From the IMG/VR virus record IMGVR_UViG_3300027659_000050, positions 1-49,718 of that record: a DNA stretch of 49,718 nt; one strand, given 5' to 3'. Numbering within the stretch: position 1 is the first letter of the stretch; each line of letters begins with the position of its first letter. This document shows positions 5,470 through 47,337 of this stretch, piece after piece. This stretch comes from a virus. Made by a program: the position numbers and the translations under genes. A model generated the notes under the pieces. It was not told the DNA's origin, did no database searches, and saw nothing but the letters and a program-made list of their open reading frames with translations.

Positions 5470-6216
5470 ATGGATGAAGTGAAATTATTAGAGTTTATGA
5501 AAATAAACTATGCGACAAGAAAAGATATGTCGCAGTCCGTTAAATTATTTCAAGAAATCGGTTATAATGTAATAAAGTATTTTGATATTGATGGAGCGCA
5601 AGGTTATCTAACTAAGAAAGATGATGATATTGTGCTGTCTTTTAGAGGCACACAAGTATCATTTACTGGCATAAATAAAACGGAAAAGTCAGATATTTTA
5701 GCTGATTTAAATGTCAGTAAAGAAAAAGAAAGCGGTGGCAAGGTTCATACTGGATTTCAAAAAGAAGCAAATAAATTATGGGAAGCGGTAGCTGTTGAAA
5801 TCGCTCAACATATTTCTGGAAACAAATTGTTTATAACTGGTCATAGTTTGGGAGCGGGAATCGCTACAATTGTTGCATCTAGGCTGCAAGATAAAGTCGA
5901 TACTCTTATTACATTCGGTTCGCCCAGAGTAGGGGATGGTGATTTTGTAAAGCATTTAAAAGTCAAACACCTTAGAGTTCAAAACACAAATGACTATGCT
6001 TGTTTTCTACCGCCACTATGGATGGGGTTTAGGCATCATGGCACAAATCTGTACATTGACCGTATTGGTAATGTGCAAGAAATCGGTTTAATTAAAAAAT
6101 CGAAAGATATGGTACTATCATTAGTCAAAGATTTCAAGAATGGTAATTATATTTCTGCATTTGTTGATCATAAGCCGATTAACTATATTAATAAACTAAC
6201 CTTTTTAAATAATTGA
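5470..6216 (+). CDS. Class 3 (fungal-type) lipase
   Basis: 248 residues with an alpha/beta hydrolase core. The nucleophile elbow GHSLGAG (124-130) places the catalytic serine at 126. FGSPRVGD (149-156), then NTNDYACFLPP with Asp175 and FRHHG with His190 complete the Ser-Asp-His triad in the order and spacing of lipase class 3. LSFRGT (about 58-63) matches the conserved oxyanion-side segment. No signal peptide or membrane segment is seen. It lies within the tail-fibre cluster, so it may be a virion-associated esterase acting on host envelope lipids or acylated glycans, or a lysis factor. Family assignment is strong; the role is inferred. Confidence 0.85.
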   Translation: MDEVKLLEFMKINYATRKDMSQSVKLFQEIGYNVIKYFDIDGAQGYLTKKDDDIVLSFRGTQVSFTGINKTEKSDILADLNVSKEKESGGKVHTGFQKEANKLWEAVAVEIAQHISGNKLFITGHSLGAGIATIVASRLQDKVDTLITFGSPRVGDGDFVKHLKVKHLRVQNTNDYACFLPPLWMGFRHHGTNLYIDRIGNVQEIGLIKKSKDMVLSLVKDFKNGNYISAFVDHKPINYINKLTFLNN

Positions 6217-29966: not shown

Positions 29967-30022
29967 TTTTTGAATGCTTTGTATATGAGGATGGAGTCTA
30001 GTAGTAGGAGTAGGTAGATCAT
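29963..30022 (-). CDS. 19-residue hydrophobic micro-ORF
   Basis: MIYLLLLLDSILIYKAFKK: a hydrophobic core with a Lys-rich C-terminus. ATG overlaps the deaminase stop (ATGA) and its stop overlaps the next ATG. It may be a real membrane peptide or only a coupling device. Confidence 0.35.
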   Translation of the reverse strand: MIYLLLLLDSILIYKAFKK

Positions 30023-30408
30023 AATTGGATTAGGGTGACTCCCATTTTCTGGGCAGTTATAAGGGCGGTGGGGTCTGTTTGGTAGATGTCTTTGTAGATA
30101 ACTCTTTTTATCTTATAGGCTACTAGGGTCTTTAAGCAGTCTGAGCATGGGAGTAATGTGGAGCAGAGTGTCTTTCCTTCGCCGGGTTGGGTGTATCTGA
30201 GGGCGTTCTGTTCTGCGTGGATGACGTACTTCCTTCTCTCATCTCTGTCTGACCAGTCTTCTTCTATACCTTGTGGGAATCCGTTGTACCCTACTGAGGC
30301 TATGGAGTTATCTTCTCTGAGAATGACTGCCCCGACTTGTCTCCACGGGTCTTTGCTTTTCTTAGCTACTACTTCAGCTATACTCATAGCGTATTCGTCC
30401 CAGTTCAT
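30019..30408 (-). CDS. Deoxycytidylate (dCMP) deaminase
   Basis: 129 residues with the zinc-dependent cytidine/deoxycytidylate deaminase signature: His64-Ala-Glu66 (HAE) and PCSDC with Cys88 and Cys91 as zinc ligands. GYNGFPQGI (40-48) matches the substrate-binding loop of dCMP deaminases. It converts dCMP to dUMP, feeding thymidylate synthesis during phage replication. Start overlaps the upstream stop (ATGA). No thymidylate synthase is seen in the window. A modified-base pathway is an alternative role given nearby glycosyltransferases. Confidence 0.9.
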   Translation of the reverse strand: MNWDEYAMSIAEVVAKKSKDPWRQVGAVILREDNSIASVGYNGFPQGIEEDWSDRDERRKYVIHAEQNALRYTQPGEGKTLCSTLLPCSDCLKTLVAYKIKRVIYKDIYQTDPTALITAQKMGVTLIQL

Positions 30409-30611
30409 TTGGTGAATTGTATCTCGTCTAGCATATCAGATGGATTTCTCTGCCCGTTTGCCATTGCCTCTATCCATCTTGCTGGATCAATTGTAGCTGT
30501 ATGCGTCCATCCATCTCGCAATTTTTTCTCTATTGCTAGAGTTTCTTGCGCCGCATGAATCTTCACTGTCCCTTCTTTAGAGAAGATAAATAACATGGTG
30601 TCTAAAATCAT
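30405..30611 (-). CDS. 68-residue hypothetical protein
   Basis: Short alpha/beta protein (TMLFIFSKEGTVKIHAAQETL, DPARWIEAMANGQRNPSDML). ATGA-type overlaps with the glycosyltransferase upstream and the deaminase downstream. No family recognised. Confidence 0.6.
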   Translation of the reverse strand: MILDTMLFIFSKEGTVKIHAAQETLAIEKKLRDGWTHTATIDPARWIEAMANGQRNPSDMLDEIQFTK

Positions 30612-31504
30612 AGGTTATTTATGTAATTGATCCATTCATTACGAATGATAGCCCAGTCTATGGATTTCCCTATTTCATAGGATTCATTACAGAGTGTTCT
30701 ATAATAAGAAGAATCTGCTTTCATTTTTTCTATTTCGTATACTGCTTTGTAGATGAATCCTTCTTCATCTAATGGGAGAAGTTTACCTCCCCCATTTTTG
30801 AGGTATTCTGGTGCTATCCCAGTAGGAGTCCCAAGTACAGGTATTCCACAAGAGAATGCTTCTAACATTGGGTATGGATTACCTTCTACTAAGGAGGCAA
30901 AGATAACCAATCCTATTTCATTGTACATTTGTTCAACTGCAAGGAAGTTAACTGATTCACTTTTTACTAATTGAAGGTTTGTTTTTTCAGCTATTACATC
31001 TATTAAATGCCCACGTTTAACGTCATATCCTTGGTCTATTCTCTGTGATTTAGCAAAACTTCCTATGTTCTTTAGTTCTGAACTAATATTTTTAGGATAT
31101 TGGTTTTGGAATGTTCCTATTTTTAGTAGACTTGGAACCCTACCTACCCCATGAGATAGTGATACATTTTGAAGTAATGGTGCTATAGCGGCGTACCCGC
31201 CTAGTTTATCAAACCAATCTTTCTTTCCTTCTCTAACTGGGTTATAGACATCACAATCTTGGTGGAGAACGGCGATTGTTCTTTCTAGTGGAACTCCATA
31301 TCTTTCGTGGATTAAGAAACATCCATATGGTATTGACATTATATAATCATATTTCTTTAAGAATAATTCAAAATCTTTATGTGTGTATTGGTTATTCCAA
31401 CAAGCAATATCACAATAAATGTCAGGGTGTAATGCTTTGATTAATTCATTATGAATCTTTCCAAACACCCACCCGTTGTGAATAAAGAATAAAACCTTTT
31501 TCAT
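30608..31504 (-). CDS. Glycosyltransferase (GT4-like, GT-B fold)
   Basis: 298 residues. The C-terminal donor-binding half has SLVEGNPYPMLEAFSCGIPV, then GTPTGIAPEYLKNGGG (about 205-250), the E-x7-E-like nucleotide-sugar region of GT4-type enzymes. The N-terminal half starts KVLFFIHNGW and is shorter than usual. It shares the APxxLxNGGG segment with the glycosyltransferase at 32097, so the two are likely paralogues. Sugar donor and acceptor cannot be told. Confidence 0.8.
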   Translation of the reverse strand: MKKVLFFIHNGWVFGKIHNELIKALHPDIYCDIACWNNQYTHKDFELFLKKYDYIMSIPYGCFLIHERYGVPLERTIAVLHQDCDVYNPVREGKKDWFDKLGGYAAIAPLLQNVSLSHGVGRVPSLLKIGTFQNQYPKNISSELKNIGSFAKSQRIDQGYDVKRGHLIDVIAEKTNLQLVKSESVNFLAVEQMYNEIGLVIFASLVEGNPYPMLEAFSCGIPVLGTPTGIAPEYLKNGGGKLLPLDEEGFIYKAVYEIEKMKADSSYYRTLCNESYEIGKSIDWAIIRNEWINYINNL

Positions 31505-32100
31505 TTACTTAAAATTAGATTTTCTGAATGGAATTTAATATTAGGAAACATCTTATGAAGTGAGAATGCAATTTCATCTATCTTATTAGTATTACCATAT
31601 CTGCCAATGATATATTCTACTGTTATTGAATCGCAGGATATTTTATTAGAAAGAATGTTTTTTGCTACTTCTTTAAAGATAATATGATCATGTCCCTCTG
31701 TGTCTATTTTAAGAATGTCAATATGCTCGATATTGTATTTAGATATAAGATTATCAAATGATATGATATTGATCTTCTTTGATTCTATAATTGATATAGG
31801 AACTCCAAAGTTATTAAGATAATTAACTACAATAACGTGAGGTTCATTTATCTTGCTACATCCTTTCATCCACATTGGAAGGTTGTGTGATATAATCTTT
31901 TCTTCTGGAACATAGAATATATCAATTGATCCATCTTTATCTGAACAAGCTGAGTTCTCTTTTTGAATGTTTTCTCCAGATGGAAGCCTGTTTAAGTACT
32001 CTTTCATTGGTTCAACTAGAAGATAGTTTTTATCTTTAGAGAATGTTCCATCAGCAACTTCAAAGTCACACGTTCCTATATCTACATAGTCGTAGTTCAT
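31501..32100 (-). CDS. FkbM-family methyltransferase
   Basis: 199 residues. SAM-binding start YDYVDIGTCDFEVADG (motif I-like), acidic LLVEPM (about 27-32), and HIDILKIDTEGHDHIIF (about 133-149), the D-x-E-G-x-(D/E) signature of FkbM methyltransferases. These usually O-methylate sugars. Overlaps with glycosyltransferase genes on both sides support a role in trimming or capping a glycan. AT-rich compared with the replication genes. Confidence 0.8.
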   Translation of the reverse strand: MNYDYVDIGTCDFEVADGTFSKDKNYLLVEPMKEYLNRLPSGENIQKENSACSDKDGSIDIFYVPEEKIISHNLPMWMKGCSKINEPHVIVVNYLNNFGVPISIIESKKINIISFDNLISKYNIEHIDILKIDTEGHDHIIFKEVAKNILSNKISCDSITVEYIIGRYGNTNKIDEIAFSLHKMFPNIKFHSENLILSK

Positions 32101-33077
32101 ATTGTTTCAATAAACTCCCTAATCCCATTTTCCCATTGAGATTTTACACTATTCCAAGTGTGATTTTGTAGTGTATTTTCTCTAATGCGAATTGACTCTT
32201 TTTGAAATTCATCTGGGTTTTCTTTCCAGAATTTCAAAACATTTACTGCCATGTTAATATATTCTTGCTCATCGAATGTTTCAGTCATTACGCCACCACC
32301 ATTTGCCAAGAATTGCGGAGCATGACCAGCAGGAGATGCAATGATTGGGATACCACATATACCAGCTTCAAATAAACCTAATGGGCCTGACTCATAGATT
32401 GATGTCATCATATAAACATCAACTTGTTTATACATTAAATCCATTGCTTGAAATGGAATGTCCCCACGCATAATTAATGGTATTCCACTCAACTCAGATG
32501 TTGTTACAGCAAGATGACCTCGCTTTGTATTCATTCCTTGACCTTGTGTAGAATCAAAGTGAGTGAAATATCCTAAACTATTAACTGATTTTCTTACAAA
32601 TGTTGATTGAGGAAAGTTGTTTTCATCTACTCCCAATTGAGATAAAATCAATTTACTGGCAATCTTAGGGACTTCTTTCTTTACAGCATGGATTGTATTT
32701 GGAGATACACAGAGTATTTTTTTAAATAAATCCATGTCATTAAATAATAATTCACGATTTGTATAATTTCTCAGCCGAGATTGTTTTGCGTTAAATGTAT
32801 AGTCAGCCACTTGTTGAGGCCCATGACATACTGGTAATATTTTTTTAAGAACCTTCTCACTGAATGCTCCACCAATAGCTTCTTGAGCAGAGTTCATATC
32901 TATCAAGATTGCATCATAAACATCTGCAAAATTATCAAAACTATAATGATTAGGATCAAATGACCAATTGATAAATGTAAAGTTGAATTTATCTGATAGA
33001 TTATTAATTAAATCCCAGTACACTCTAGCATGGCTCCATAGCCCCATTCCGTAGATTAATATTTTTGGTTTTGTCAT
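32097..33077 (-). CDS. Glycosyltransferase (GT4-like)
   Basis: 326 residues, GT-B fold. N-terminus PKILIYGMGLWSHARVYWDL; C-terminal half YESGPLGLFEAGICGIPI followed by SPAGHAPQFLANGGG, the donor-sugar pocket pattern. Ends in a helical region typical of GT4. ATGA overlaps with the genes on both sides. Substrate unknown. Confidence 0.8.
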   Translation of the reverse strand: MTKPKILIYGMGLWSHARVYWDLINNLSDKFNFTFINWSFDPNHYSFDNFADVYDAILIDMNSAQEAIGGAFSEKVLKKILPVCHGPQQVADYTFNAKQSRLRNYTNRELLFNDMDLFKKILCVSPNTIHAVKKEVPKIASKLILSQLGVDENNFPQSTFVRKSVNSLGYFTHFDSTQGQGMNTKRGHLAVTTSELSGIPLIMRGDIPFQAMDLMYKQVDVYMMTSIYESGPLGLFEAGICGIPIIASPAGHAPQFLANGGGVMTETFDEQEYINMAVNVLKFWKENPDEFQKESIRIRENTLQNHTWNSVKSQWENGIREFIETI

Positions 33078-34183
33078 GGATAGTATTTGTAGAGTGAGTT
33101 AAGTCCGTTTCCGTCTGCGTACCATCCCCGACCCGTGTATATATCAAGGATGTCATTGAAGTACTTTTCGTACATTGGTGCTACCTTCTCTAAGGTGAAG
33201 TTCTTACCGAAGGCTAGGCAGTCCGCTGGTCTGATCTTCTTTATGTTGTGCATGGCATCTATGAAGTCTCCCATAGTCCTGCATCGGTATCCTGTAATAC
33301 CATGTGGGTTGTTTTCTGCAAAGCAGCCCCAGTCTGTAGTTAGGGTGGGAGTACCAGAGAGTAAGTTCTCTACTTGGACTCCACCGAAGGGTTCTACATA
33401 CATCGAAGGGATGAAAGAAGCTGTTGCGTTGGACATTAACTTCTTTCTTTTGTTAACGTCTGCGTACCCTACATACTCAACGTGATCTGGGAGTTTGTAA
33501 CCTTCCTCTTTTTGCCCAGCTATTACTAGTTTTTTGCCGAGGATTTCAGTCGCTTGAATAGCAACTTCCACTCCCTTACCAGAATATACCCGACCAAGGT
33601 AAAGATAGTAATCCTCTTTTTTCTCGTTATAATCGAAATCATCAATATCAAAATAGTTAGGTATGACAACTTCATACCAGTCTTGTCTACAGGAACCTAC
33701 ACCTTGCATACCAGCATAAGCATGGTAGATGGCATAGGATTCAAACACTTTAAATCGCGCCCAGTGACCGCCAGCATATCCAATGCCCGGCTCTACTACG
33801 ATCATATCATGTTGGTGTGCATCACATATCGGTCTGACTCCGCTTCCCCAAAATGGAAGAATAAAGTCGTTCTTTTTCTTTCTAAAACCTACTTCTTTAA
33901 TAGCGTTTTTGTAGAAGGTTTGATAAGCATGATCACCAGTATCAAACTTAAAAAATGTCTTACGCCAGTCATGGCTACCATAGGATTTTTTAAAGTCATC
34001 ATTGGTTAATACAGTAACGTGTTCAGTGCATGGTAGGTCAGAGTCCTCATGCCCGTAGTGGATTACTTCATGCCCACGTTCGGTCATCATCTTTCCAAAC
34101 TTAACTACTTTCTGTGTGTAAGCACAGGCGTTAAATTGTTTAGATGAGACTGTGTGAGGAAGCCCTAAGATATGGAATCTCAT
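33074..34183 (-). CDS. Glycosyltransferase family 4
   Basis: 369 residues. N-terminal FHILGLPHTVSSKQFNACAY; central YLYLGRVYSGKG (193-204), the usual start of the C-terminal Rossmann domain; EPFGGVQVE (264-272) supplies the catalytic-side E-x7-E. LVIAGQ and YVGY strands lie between. Base composition is closer to neighbouring phage genes than the other two glycosyltransferases. Likely first enzyme of the cassette. Confidence 0.85.
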   Translation of the reverse strand: MRFHILGLPHTVSSKQFNACAYTQKVVKFGKMMTERGHEVIHYGHEDSDLPCTEHVTVLTNDDFKKSYGSHDWRKTFFKFDTGDHAYQTFYKNAIKEVGFRKKKNDFILPFWGSGVRPICDAHQHDMIVVEPGIGYAGGHWARFKVFESYAIYHAYAGMQGVGSCRQDWYEVVIPNYFDIDDFDYNEKKEDYYLYLGRVYSGKGVEVAIQATEILGKKLVIAGQKEEGYKLPDHVEYVGYADVNKRKKLMSNATASFIPSMYVEPFGGVQVENLLSGTPTLTTDWGCFAENNPHGITGYRCRTMGDFIDAMHNIKKIRPADCLAFGKNFTLEKVAPMYEKYFNDILDIYTGRGWYADGNGLNSLYKYYP

Positions 34184-36827: not shown

Positions 36828-37726
36828 TAGAAGGATTGTCTGTAAGGATTTTGATCAACTACATTCTTGGAGCGGATGACCCAAGCACTCAGGAACGCAC
36901 GGGAGTACTTACGTTCTGGGTGACTGAGTAGCCAACTCTGTGCGTGTTTCGCTTCACGCTCCACGTCTTTGTCTGGGTTTAGCTTTTGAAGTTCTGCTAG
37001 GAACTCAGCGTCTACTGGTTTTTGCACTTTAGGCTTCCTACCCTTGGGTGGGTTAGCGGCGGTAGGTTGCTGGTTAAATAATTCAGAGGTCTGGAATCCA
37101 TTTGAAGTTTTATCATTTGTGGAAGATGAGGCTATTGCCGAATTTTCCTCTTCCCCTTGAAAAGGGGTTAGGGGTTTTACTTCTATGTTTTTAATCTTTG
37201 TTTTAATCTCTGTTATTGCTTCCGCATCTTGCGGCATTGATACCGCATCTTGCGGAATGAACACCGCTTCTTGCGGGATGGTTGCCAATTGAAAATCTGT
37301 CATTTCATACCCACGATCTTTCAATAATCTACGCAAAAAAACTAGGTCAATTCGATACTGAAGAGTCCTATCATATCTCACCCGTGGGTTGCTTCTGGTC
37401 ATAAAAACACCCTTTGTGACAAGCGTAGAAAACGCACGTTGGATTGCATCTTCACTAAAAGCACACATCAAATCTTCACGCATTTCACGGGCAGATTTAT
37501 AAATCCAACCATAGTTGTATTCATGTTGTGGGAGGTCAGATTCAGCCAAACGCTTGTTCTCTTCAAAAATCCAGTTGTTGACCGTATCAAGTGTTTTTGT
37601 CCAATACAGCATTTGTCCTAGAACCAATGCCTGAGTTACATCTTGAGTTAACATCATTATGTCCTCTCTCAAGACTGCCTTCTTCATTCTGACGAATAGG
37701 CGTTGAGGTTGTTTTACAGGTATCAT
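36827..37726 (-). CDS. Replication initiator / helicase-loader-like protein
   Basis: 299 residues. The N-terminal winged-helix region has ALVLGQMLYWTKTL, WIYKSAREMREDL and DAIQRAFSTLVTKGVF, the pattern of DnaD-type or phage O-like replication proteins. A Ser/Thr/Pro linker (about 165-230) contains three tandem IPQ/MPQ-(E/D)AV-type repeats, followed by a C-terminal helical domain (PDKDVEREAKHAQSWLL...SRAFLSAWVIR). It probably binds the origin and loads the DnaB protein encoded next. Start ATG lies 150 nt from the operon promoter. Confidence 0.7.
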   Translation of the reverse strand: MIPVKQPQRLFVRMKKAVLREDIMMLTQDVTQALVLGQMLYWTKTLDTVNNWIFEENKRLAESDLPQHEYNYGWIYKSAREMREDLMCAFSEDAIQRAFSTLVTKGVFMTRSNPRVRYDRTLQYRIDLVFLRRLLKDRGYEMTDFQLATIPQEAVFIPQDAVSMPQDAEAITEIKTKIKNIEVKPLTPFQGEEENSAIASSSTNDKTSNGFQTSELFNQQPTAANPPKGRKPKVQKPVDAEFLAELQKLNPDKDVEREAKHAQSWLLSHPERKYSRAFLSAWVIRSKNVVDQNPYRQSF

Positions 37727-37875
37727 TTAAAAAAGGCCACCCTCTCCATAGCAGCAAAAGTCCGGCGAAATGACGGGTGAAGAATACCTACTAAGGAGCG
37801 GGTGATATATGGGTTTCAATTTATTACTTTTGATTTTCGTCTGTTCTTCACGCAGACGGCACGATTGCTCGTACA
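37727..37875 (-). promoter_or_regulatory. Structured leader of replication operon
   Basis: About 150 nt between the predicted start site and ATG 37726. Minus-strand hairpins include CGTCTG/CAGACG and ACGA-GCAA-TCGT. A 60-codon open frame crosses the region, but its ATG (37909) lies within the -35 box, so it cannot be expressed as drawn. Confidence 0.45.
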
Positions 37876-37881
37876 AGACAG

Positions 37882-37909
37882 ACACTACTACATCTAGTGA
37901 TAGTGTCAA
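37882..37909 (-). promoter_or_regulatory. Sigma-70-like promoter of replication operon
   Basis: Minus strand: TTGACA (37909-37904), 16-bp spacer, TAGTGT (37887-37882). It drives the 8-kb operon down to 29725. Palindrome site 15 lies 18 bp upstream. Confidence 0.75.
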
Positions 37910-37927
37910 ATGTTTTTTACAATATTT

Positions 37928-45624: not shown

Positions 45625-45664
45625 AAAGGTGAAAGACGTAAAAAATCTTTCACCTTTTTTGTTT
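45625..45664 (+). terminator. Strong intrinsic terminator after scaffold
   Basis: AAAGGTGAAAGA / TCTTTCACCTTT perfect stem (45625-45636 with 45646-45657), then TTTGTTTT. It separates portal-scaffold transcription from the capsid promoter. Confidence 0.85.
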
Positions 45665-45670
45665 TATCGC

Positions 45671-45698
45671 TTGACAATATAAATAATGTTCTTATGTT
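45671..45698 (+). promoter_or_regulatory. Sigma-70-like promoter of major capsid gene
   Basis: TTGACA at 45671-45676, 16-bp spacer, TATGTT at 45693-45698. The transcript would start near 45705, giving a leader of about 220 nt, the longest in the window. Confidence 0.75.
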
Positions 45699-45721
45699 TT
45701 GATCAAACGGGATATCCGAGA

Positions 45722-45737
45722 TTATCGTTTACGATAA
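45722..45737. promoter_or_regulatory. Palindrome site 18 in capsid leader
   Basis: TTATCGTTTACGATAA, about 18 bp downstream of the predicted transcription start; could act as a roadblock operator or an RNA hairpin. Confidence 0.8.
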
Positions 45738-45748
45738 TATTAGGGATT

Positions 45749-45875
45749 CAGTCTCACCCGGACTGGCGAGTAACATCACTCGCATGAAAAGATGTTTCTG
45801 GACTGCTCTCGCAAGAGAGATTCGGGGTTGACTCCAGCCGAAGAAAAACGAAGCACTCGCTTTGGCATTCTTCGG
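45749..45875 (+). ncRNA. Structured RNA leader of capsid gene
   Basis: Consecutive perfect helices: CAGTC/GACTG (45749-45753, 45761-45765); GCGAGT/ACTCGC (45766-45771, 45778-45783); CTGGA/TCCAG (45798-45802, 45833-45837) enclosing CTCTC/GAGAG (45806-45819); CCGAAGAA/TTCTTCGG (45838-45845, 45868-45875). The whole loop AACATC of the second helix (45772-45777) is complementary to GATGTT at 45791-45796, giving a pseudoknot or an alternative helix. A 15-codon open frame (45784-45831, MKRCFWTALAREIRG) lies inside. No match to a known riboswitch is recognised. Confidence 0.6.
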
Positions 45876-45927
45876 ACTTGTCATGGGTGCAACAACCAAA
45901 CCAAACTAAACCAACCAACTAAATAAA

Positions 45928-47337
45928 ATGTCAGATCAACTATACTTCAATAGCTGTGCTGAAATTGATTCTTTCTTTCGTGAGGGCCGCGAATATTTCA
46001 ACGACCTCTATGTAAAGAAACTTGTCACTAACAGTGCATATTTCACACGTTTCGAGGAGCAAGCATGGCCTCTTAACCACACAACTGAACAGAAAGCGTT
46101 CCGCTTCGGACGTGGATTCCACGATCCTTGTACGCCTTTCCGTCAGATCACCGACACCTACTGCGAGACTGATTCTTGCGATAGCAAACCCGAAGTGATT
46201 CAACGCCCCGGCACTGAGTCCTATACTTTCGAGTTGCTCCGTAAGGAAATGACTACTGACTGGATTTGCGTTGAGAGCTTGCTCTATCGTTTGTTCCCAG
46301 CAGAAGAAATCCTCCAGTTTGAAGAGTCGAATGCCCGTATCACTAAGAACGTGCATGAAGAGTTTCTTCGCTCCAACTACATTGGCCAATCTGGTCACAA
46401 GTGGATGGGTATCACTACGGATGACGGAACCTATTGCGGACTCGTTGACGATAACGCTTGGTTCGTTCCAGAGCATACGCTCAACAACGAAGCTGGCTAC
46501 GATCTCTGCGCTATTCGCGTTAAACTCGCTCCTGCCAACCTCAACACGATTGCTTATCTCTCGCTTGATATGCTCGACGATGCTCTCGTTGACCTCCAAG
46601 ACGAAGATGACGCTTTCCGCCTTGATCTCCAAGACGCAACTGGTCAACCTTTGCTCGACATCGTTATCCCTGACCCACAAGTTGGACGTGCGCTTTATTT
46701 CCAAGCGAAACGCAACAACGGTTACTGGGATGCAAACACTGATTTCGATGAGCGTCTTACCCGCTTGAAACTCGGAATCAATCGTATCATCGGCGATTAC
46801 GCCTTCGGTTACGACATCAACTCCGCTCGTTTCAACGCTGATACGGCATTCAACGCAACACTTCCAGCCTATAACGAAGCTGACCCTGCAACATGGGCGC
46901 GTCTCGTTCGTGTACCTCGTTACATCAAGACTGTGCTTGAACAAGGATGTGCTTACATCCCTAACCGCGCTTACCGCACTGCCGATTTCGGCATCTCGGT
47001 TGCTATGGTTAACAAAGCAATGTGCAAGTGGACAATGCCTTCCTCGACTGGATACGGCCAAGCCCAACAAATGACCCAGAACTACGCTGGCGATTGGGAA
47101 TGGAAGAACCCAGATTGGGAGTGCAACCGCTGGCGTAAATCGGGCTTCTATCAAGCCCAGTTCCGTCTTGCCGCACAAGTTAAAGACCCAACCATCATGC
47201 ACACCTTCTTGCATCGTATGCCACAGAGCAAAAACCTCTATGGTTCCTGCTGCGAAGTGCAGACCTATATCGTACCTGAGAACAATCAGGACTGCTATAG
47301 CTGCGCTGGTGTAGGTGACATTGTTGTGCCTTCCTAA
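45928..47337 (+). CDS. Major capsid protein
   Basis: 469 residues. Assigned from its place after portal and scaffold, its own promoter and long leader, and the strong C-rich third-position codon bias expected of the most expressed gene. Segments include WPLNHTTEQKAFRFGRGFHD, VLEQGCAYIPNRAYRTADFG and a C-terminal Cys group (CCEVQTY...DCYSCAGVG). The fold is presumably HK97-like, but no diagnostic motif was read by eye. The codon bias leaves a 477-codon antisense frame open; that frame is not a gene. Confidence 0.75.
   Translation: MSDQLYFNSCAEIDSFFREGREYFNDLYVKKLVTNSAYFTRFEEQAWPLNHTTEQKAFRFGRGFHDPCTPFRQITDTYCETDSCDSKPEVIQRPGTESYTFELLRKEMTTDWICVESLLYRLFPAEEILQFEESNARITKNVHEEFLRSNYIGQSGHKWMGITTDDGTYCGLVDDNAWFVPEHTLNNEAGYDLCAIRVKLAPANLNTIAYLSLDMLDDALVDLQDEDDAFRLDLQDATGQPLLDIVIPDPQVGRALYFQAKRNNGYWDANTDFDERLTRLKLGINRIIGDYAFGYDINSARFNADTAFNATLPAYNEADPATWARLVRVPRYIKTVLEQGCAYIPNRAYRTADFGISVAMVNKAMCKWTMPSSTGYGQAQQMTQNYAGDWEWKNPDWECNRWRKSGFYQAQFRLAAQVKDPTIMHTFLHRMPQSKNLYGSCCEVQTYIVPENNQDCYSCAGVGDIVVPS

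Follow-up and report, generated by a model that had tools for sequence, protein, structure and literature searches.

A conserved pseudoknotted leader RNA, putatively cis-regulatory, upstream of a putative capsid gene in uncultured phages

The 5' leader of a putative capsid gene from an uncultured phage encodes an RNA that, as comparison among relatives shows, is a single-copy and strictly syntenic element composed of helices P1 to P4, one pseudoknot (PK2) and a pair of helices that exclude each other (X-Y and Y-Z), all of them kept by compensatory change. The phage is known from IMG/VR record IMGVR_UViG_3300027659_000050, whose positions 1-49,718 are the whole stretch of DNA analysed here (the window). 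By these comparisons, positions 45740-45875 are a real conserved structured RNA, in which the shape is kept and the letters are not. We propose that it defines a new family of phage cis-regulatory leader RNAs, for which the structural evidence is strong and the function putative; that it is a new cis-acting switch, controlling the putative capsid gene from within its leader, is a reading to which we give an even chance.

Locus and layout of the leader

The leader lies between the terminator of the upstream operon and the putative capsid gene. An earlier note on this DNA had described the terminator, the promoter match, the helices in 45749-45875, the complement of the P2 loop and the TTCGG/CCGAA complementarity, and all of them are found where it had placed them; P3 and the PK1 contact were missing from that reading. 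The features of the locus are as follows.

45625-45657, + strand: intrinsic terminator of the upstream operon, with a 12-bp perfect stem (45625-45636/45646-45657) and then a T-run
45671-45698, + strand: putative promoter, TTGACA-16-TATGTT, with 10 of 12 consensus matches
45716-45744, + strand: 5' hairpin P0, CCGA...UUAGG, containing a palindrome at 45721-45738
45740-45875, + strand: RNA core, as found with covariance model R1
45749-45765, + strand: hairpin P1, stem CAGUC/GACUG (45749-45753/45761-45765), loop UCACCCG
45756-45759 with 45825-45828, + strand: PK1, probable kissing contact of ACCC in the P1 loop with GGGU
45766-45783, + strand: hairpin P2, stem GCGAGU/ACUCGC (45766-45771/45778-45783), loop AACAUC
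45772-45777 with 45791-45796, + strand: pseudoknot PK2, P2 loop AACATC with its exact complement GATGTT
45798-45802 with 45833-45837, + strand: P3, CUGGA/UCCAG, enclosing P3b and strand X
45806-45819, + strand: P3b, optional hairpin CUCUC-GCAA-GAGAG, missing from one lineage
45821-45825, + strand: strand X, UUCGG, whose pairing with Y forms a pseudoknot with P3
45838-45845, + strand: strand Y, CCGAAGAA, partner common to X and Z (five-letter match at 45838-45842)
45868-45875, + strand: strand Z, UUCUUCGG, 3' strand of P4 and alternative to X
45838-45875, + strand: P4 with its apical hairpin, the outer part being Y-Z
45851-45862, + strand: P4a, nearly invariant apical hairpin AAGC-ACUC-GCUU
45864-45882, + strand: possible hairpin T, GGCAUUC-UUCG-GACUUGUC, weak and overlapping Z
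45886-45927, + strand: spacer up to the start codon, A/C-rich, G-poor and unstructured, without a Shine-Dalgarno motif
45928-47337, + strand: putative major capsid gene (469 aa), so named from gene order only

At the matching place, relatives carry a terminator that is equally strong and of unrelated sequence. About 1.6 sites as good as the TTGACA-16-TATGTT promoter are expected by chance in a promoter scan, and the match alone is therefore not above chance; the TTGACA is nonetheless retained at this position in other lineages.

That the 5' hairpin at 45721-45738 is indispensable to the RNA is not supported. This hairpin is one of 17 copies in the window, against 0.07 expected, of the 16-bp palindrome TTATCGNNNNCGATAA, of which 11 are exact (positions 179, 2080, 6942, 7379, 9744, 16319, 20723, 22410, 25553, 27554, 29719, 36386, 37928, 39447, 41606, 45722 and 48333). 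The copies are intergenic, beside starts or promoters, or in some cases within genes, and occur at matching places in relatives; they look like a dispersed operator or partition-type site. Although the C-G/A-U pair that flanks the inner hairpin of P0 co-varies, the inner hairpin itself is swapped in other lineages for a short GNRA hairpin (GC-GUGA-GC). As this palindrome is dispersed in 17 copies and can be replaced elsewhere, 45721-45738 is more likely a DNA site within a tolerated hairpin loop, and the idea that it belongs to a bespoke RNA fold was rejected.

The 469-aa product is probably the major capsid protein, a label given because its gene sits after a terminase gene (with a PHROG match), a portal-sized gene and a scaffold-sized gene. 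The protein has no match among PHROGs, Pfam, NCBIfam or PDB sequences and no relative in the named phage collection; it has many matches in IMG/VR. A Bacteroidota-like host is suggested by the scarcity of Shine-Dalgarno-like motifs, present at only two of 31 plausible gene starts in the window, and by promoter-like TTTG...TANNTTTG spacing in several relatives.

Elsewhere in the window, a class 3 lipase (alpha/beta hydrolase) gene is found amid virion and tail genes (5470-6216, + strand), and three glycosyltransferase genes and an FkbM methyltransferase gene lie beside a cytidine/deoxycytidylate deaminase gene (30022-34183, - strand). There is also a second possible structured leader (37826-37910, - strand), after a TTGACA promoter and upstream of the gene starting at 37726, and three relatives (L160, L163 and L167) have hairpins of different sequence at what looks like the matching place.

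Distribution and covariation of the core

The relatives available for comparison are uncultured, mutually related metagenomic contigs. Covariance model R1, built from them, has 134 positions and scores 134 bits in the window. Searches with R1 found the element at a single place in 23 of 24 phage records, the 24th being an unrelated pattern match, and gave no convincing further copy elsewhere in the genome; one record (G012) contains two strong copies, which look like a repeat near both record ends. The earlier note had made its reading depend on the presence of the element in close relatives, and every close and more distant relative has it at the same place: the leader precedes all 94 distinct putative capsid-start regions with enough upstream sequence, down to about 73-78% identity of the downstream 469-aa protein. 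When all viral contigs were scanned independently with a DNA pattern, 81 unique versions were obtained, of which 79 precede the same gene; the other two are on truncated contigs. A pattern scan of 84,980 bacterial genomes gave only 25 chance-like matches (best model E 0.13), and the possibility of a host element borrowed by the phage was rejected on these grounds.

The RNA type, which the earlier note had not recognised, indeed appears to be new. In Rfam 15, the window leader matches no family at or above the gathering threshold, and permissive cmscan searches with this leader and those of two other lineages found nothing near threshold in the core, so identity with a known RNA family was rejected. 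ARAGORN finds no tRNA or tmRNA in the window, which discards these identities as well. Within the part of the open-access literature that was covered, we found no report of this leader element.

Folding statistics and covariation both point to a selected structure. The leader at 45705-45940 folds with z = -3.5 (0 of 200 shuffles as good), and the mean z over 81 homologues is -2.5, with 60 of them below -2. Among these 81 distinct leaders, 96.9% of 2373 cells of the nested structure are paired, against 83.2% after shuffling, and the covariation score is 0.356 against 0.138, falling to 0.03-0.11 when partners are slid by one to three columns. Covariation in homologues, on which the earlier note had also staked its reading, is strong, with two-sided changes at 20 of 31 pairs and in 349 cells, compared with 102 in shuffles. 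The alignments behind these counts had been fitted to the model, a bias towards the structure; less dependent on the fit are the per-sequence permutations given below and an unguided RNAalifold prediction from a MAFFT alignment only, which recovered P1, P2, P3 and P4a and has compensatory changes at 8 of its 19 pairs.

Individual helices agree with this picture. All five pairs of P1 show two-sided changes, P2 is supported by RNAalifold and by covariation, P3 is paired in 100% of cases with a U-A/C-G exchange in 32 of 81 leaders, and P3b has two-sided changes at the four pairs counted. P4a varies little (AAAC/GUUU in L336, AGGC/GCUU in L333), and the unpaired nucleotides UUAG, AAAA and GGGUUGA are near-invariant. 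An additional pairing of the 5' strand of P2 with the apical loop of P4 (GCGAGU/ACUCGC) was considered and dropped, the P4 loop being unchanged in lineages with a different P2. Some leaders are mosaic, joining the P1-P2 half of one lineage to the P3-P4 half of another (L004 at 2800-2934 compared with the window and L059; also L176 and L260), as if the two modules recombined.

The pseudoknot between the P2 loop and GATGTT, proposed earlier from the window alone, occurs in more than ten sequence versions across relatives, with the linker immediately before P3 as the partner strand. Besides the AACATC/GATGTT of the window, these include CAGC/GCTG, CAGA/TCTG, ACAG/CTGT, ACCG/CGGT, ATAG/CTAT, TAGTT/AACTA, ATCG/CGAT, GTAGA/TCTAT and AACAGC/GCTGTT. 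When linkers were permuted, 0 of 2000 permutations reached the observed pairing, and another test gave 0 of 402; contiguous PK2 pairing is just 3 bp in 23 of 81 leaders. PK1 (ACYC/GGGU) is compatible with most of the 81 leaders, with mostly one-sided variation, and it is less well supported than PK2 because GGGU hardly varies.

A strand common to two helices and the region downstream

In the window, X (45821-45825) and the end of Z (45871-45875) have the same five letters, and each complements CCGAA in Y (45838-45842). The earlier note had suggested that TTCGG at 45821-45825 competes for CCGAA, and both of the helices that this implies do co-vary. For X-Y there are at least five solutions (UUCGG/CCGAA, CUCUG/CAGAG, CGAG/CUCG, GAGG/CCUC, UCCUA/UAGGA and CCUUG/CAGGG), with 0 of 2000 permutations reaching the observed pairing. 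Y-Z has 6-9 bp in most leaders, with 92.7% of cells paired and 0 of 500 permutations as good. L325 has changed all three strands together (UCCUA/UAGGA/UCCUA), L174 compensates X with Y, and L180 and L220 compensate Y with Z.

X-Y and P3 together form a pseudoknot in the strand order P3-5', X, P3-3', Y; this arrangement leaves 0-1 nt between the two 3' strands, and its feasibility in three dimensions is an assumption. Computed energies are about -11 kcal/mol for outer P4 and about -6.5 kcal/mol for X-Y, the relation that a kinetic switch requires; X-Y is therefore expected to form earlier and P4 to prevail eventually, unless something keeps the core in place. Three-strand co-variation of this sort is the mark of a two-state switch in which both mutually exclusive helices are needed, and we predict such a switch here; both helices could also be conserved without switching in vivo.

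A 15-codon frame, described earlier as running through the switch region (45784-45831), does exist in the window and is not conserved: its ATG is absent from 36 of 76 homologues, and frame lengths range from 8 to 64 codons. Leader-peptide attenuation was rejected for these same reasons.

Downstream of the core, the T hairpin of the window has z near 0 by itself and there is no U-run in the window's group, whereas 22 of 81 leaders, all outside the window's lineage, have a hairpin that overlaps Z and is followed by U4 (GGGGCUUUCGGGCCUUUU in L059, for instance). T was accordingly rejected as a universal terminator, while the hairpin plus U4 of those 22 leaders is a plausible attenuator output. 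Because this terminator-like hairpin occurs in 22 of 81 leaders and is absent from the window's lineage, the output is the least certain part of the model. The distance from RNA to start codon is 44-72 nt among leaders, which leaves little room for a second promoter, and the last 40 nt before the start average 58% A and 4.5% G. The spacer of the window folds no better than shuffles (z = +0.8), and no occlusion of the start codon is evident.

Possible functions and comparison with known systems

We can envisage the following sequence of events for a cis-acting switch. Transcription would start at the promoter between the terminator and the RNA, so that the capsid message would begin with the RNA. 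During its synthesis, P1, P2 and P3 would fold and X would capture Y first, giving a compact pseudoknotted core; once Z is made, the more stable P4 would displace X, unless a ligand held the core, whether a protein from the phage or its host (the structural protein itself being one possibility) or something else. The winning state would then set the amount of capsid made. For roughly one leader in four, X-Y would free Z to form the hairpin plus U4, probably causing transcription attenuation, whereas in the others the switch may act on the A-rich start region that lacks a Shine-Dalgarno motif, or on message stability. The element could also be a new class of phage RNA, ligand-sensing or catalytic, with three pseudoknots in an aptamer-like core and a kinetic switch of three strands, serving a single structural gene; we consider this possible, with the balance against it.

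The same leader might instead be an operator bound by a protein, as in T4 gene 32: a protein on the pseudoknot would spread along or block the A-rich stretch and repress translation, autogenously if the binder is the capsid protein, while X, Y and Z would only shape the binding site. Between the pseudoknot and the ATG there are indeed about 50 nt of G-poor RNA without structure, and there is one target gene only; however, the 469-aa protein has no recognisable RNA-binding domain and the three-strand co-variation exceeds an operator's needs, and we judge an operator of this kind unlikely. Somewhat less probable still is a static 5' element that, without regulation, stabilises or enhances an abundant late message by protecting its 5' end or presenting the start region. 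A compact 5' structure directly past the promoter would suit such a role, as would the scarcity of Shine-Dalgarno-like motifs in the window for a message that would be highly expressed, but a stabiliser needs neither a strand common to two exclusive co-varying helices nor near-invariant internal nucleotides.

There is also a slim chance that the RNA is a processive antitermination RNA of the PUT/EAR type, modifying RNA polymerase where the late operon begins. Its single copy lies right past the promoter of an operon that starts with the capsid gene, and a terminator-like hairpin stands just 3' of it in 22 of 81 leaders, but terminator-like sites downstream are no commoner than chance and nothing in Rfam, which includes EAR/epsC, matches it. 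A trans-acting small RNA, stable and with a regulatory, anti-defence or structural role, that only shares the capsid-gene promoter would have its own promoter and, in one lineage (L059), a terminator-like 3' end; most leaders, however, lack a terminator past the RNA, and the strict linkage to one gene (94 of 94), which has no separate promoter, makes this reading very improbable. Finally, a new class of self-cleaving ribozyme processing the leader is hardly credible in spite of the compact multi-pseudoknot fold and the near-invariant unpaired nucleotides, since the RNA does not resemble the catalytic families in Rfam and no conserved cleavage-site context was identified.

The usual view is that double-stranded DNA phages adjust capsid levels through promoter strength and translation signals, and a dedicated pseudoknotted switch before the putative capsid gene would, if true, be an unusual layer of control. 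A ligand-sensing or catalytic class, should it exist, would let this uncultured phage group meter capsid synthesis at the RNA level. The covariation defines the secondary structure exactly and leads to strand-swap predictions that can be tested; the family, being absent from Rfam, is well placed for probing and for searches for a ligand or protein.

The switch that we favour resembles riboswitches and attenuators in its conserved, aptamer-like core, preserved by covariation, and in its exclusive downstream helices, to which such systems sometimes add a terminator. Unlike them, it has one gene context and no metabolic link, and its output helix is not conserved across lineages; metabolite riboswitches would be expected before several pathway genes or organisms' own genes, and this RNA was found only before the capsid gene. 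The EAR (epsC) and HK022 PUT processive antitermination RNAs are structured RNAs that directly follow a long operon's promoter, and the present RNA likewise lies directly past a putative operon promoter, although it has no Rfam match to EAR/epsC. Among conserved structured RNAs borne by phages, the nearest are the manA and wcaG motifs of cyanophages, also thought to be cis-regulatory (Weinberg 2010; PMC2864571), but they precede host-type metabolic genes in many contexts, whereas the present RNA precedes only one phage structural gene, and the Rfam search excludes identity with either of them.

The gene 32 leader pseudoknot of phages T4, T2 and RB69 is an autogenous translational operator; in the gene 32 operator the pseudoknot lies 67 nt upstream, and an A+U-rich stretch extends up to the start (PMC3014915). 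As in that operator, our element is a phage mRNA leader with pseudoknots (PK2 and X-Y) 5' of A-rich, unstructured RNA that extends to the start codon of a single target gene; it differs in its multi-helix fold of about 135 nt, its two or three pseudoknots and its shared switch strand, and the two have no sequence relation. Membership of the same class would depend on protein binding. In its mode of action the leader RNA described here would come closest to a leader operator or switch, and the gene 32 pseudoknot is its nearest phage precedent.
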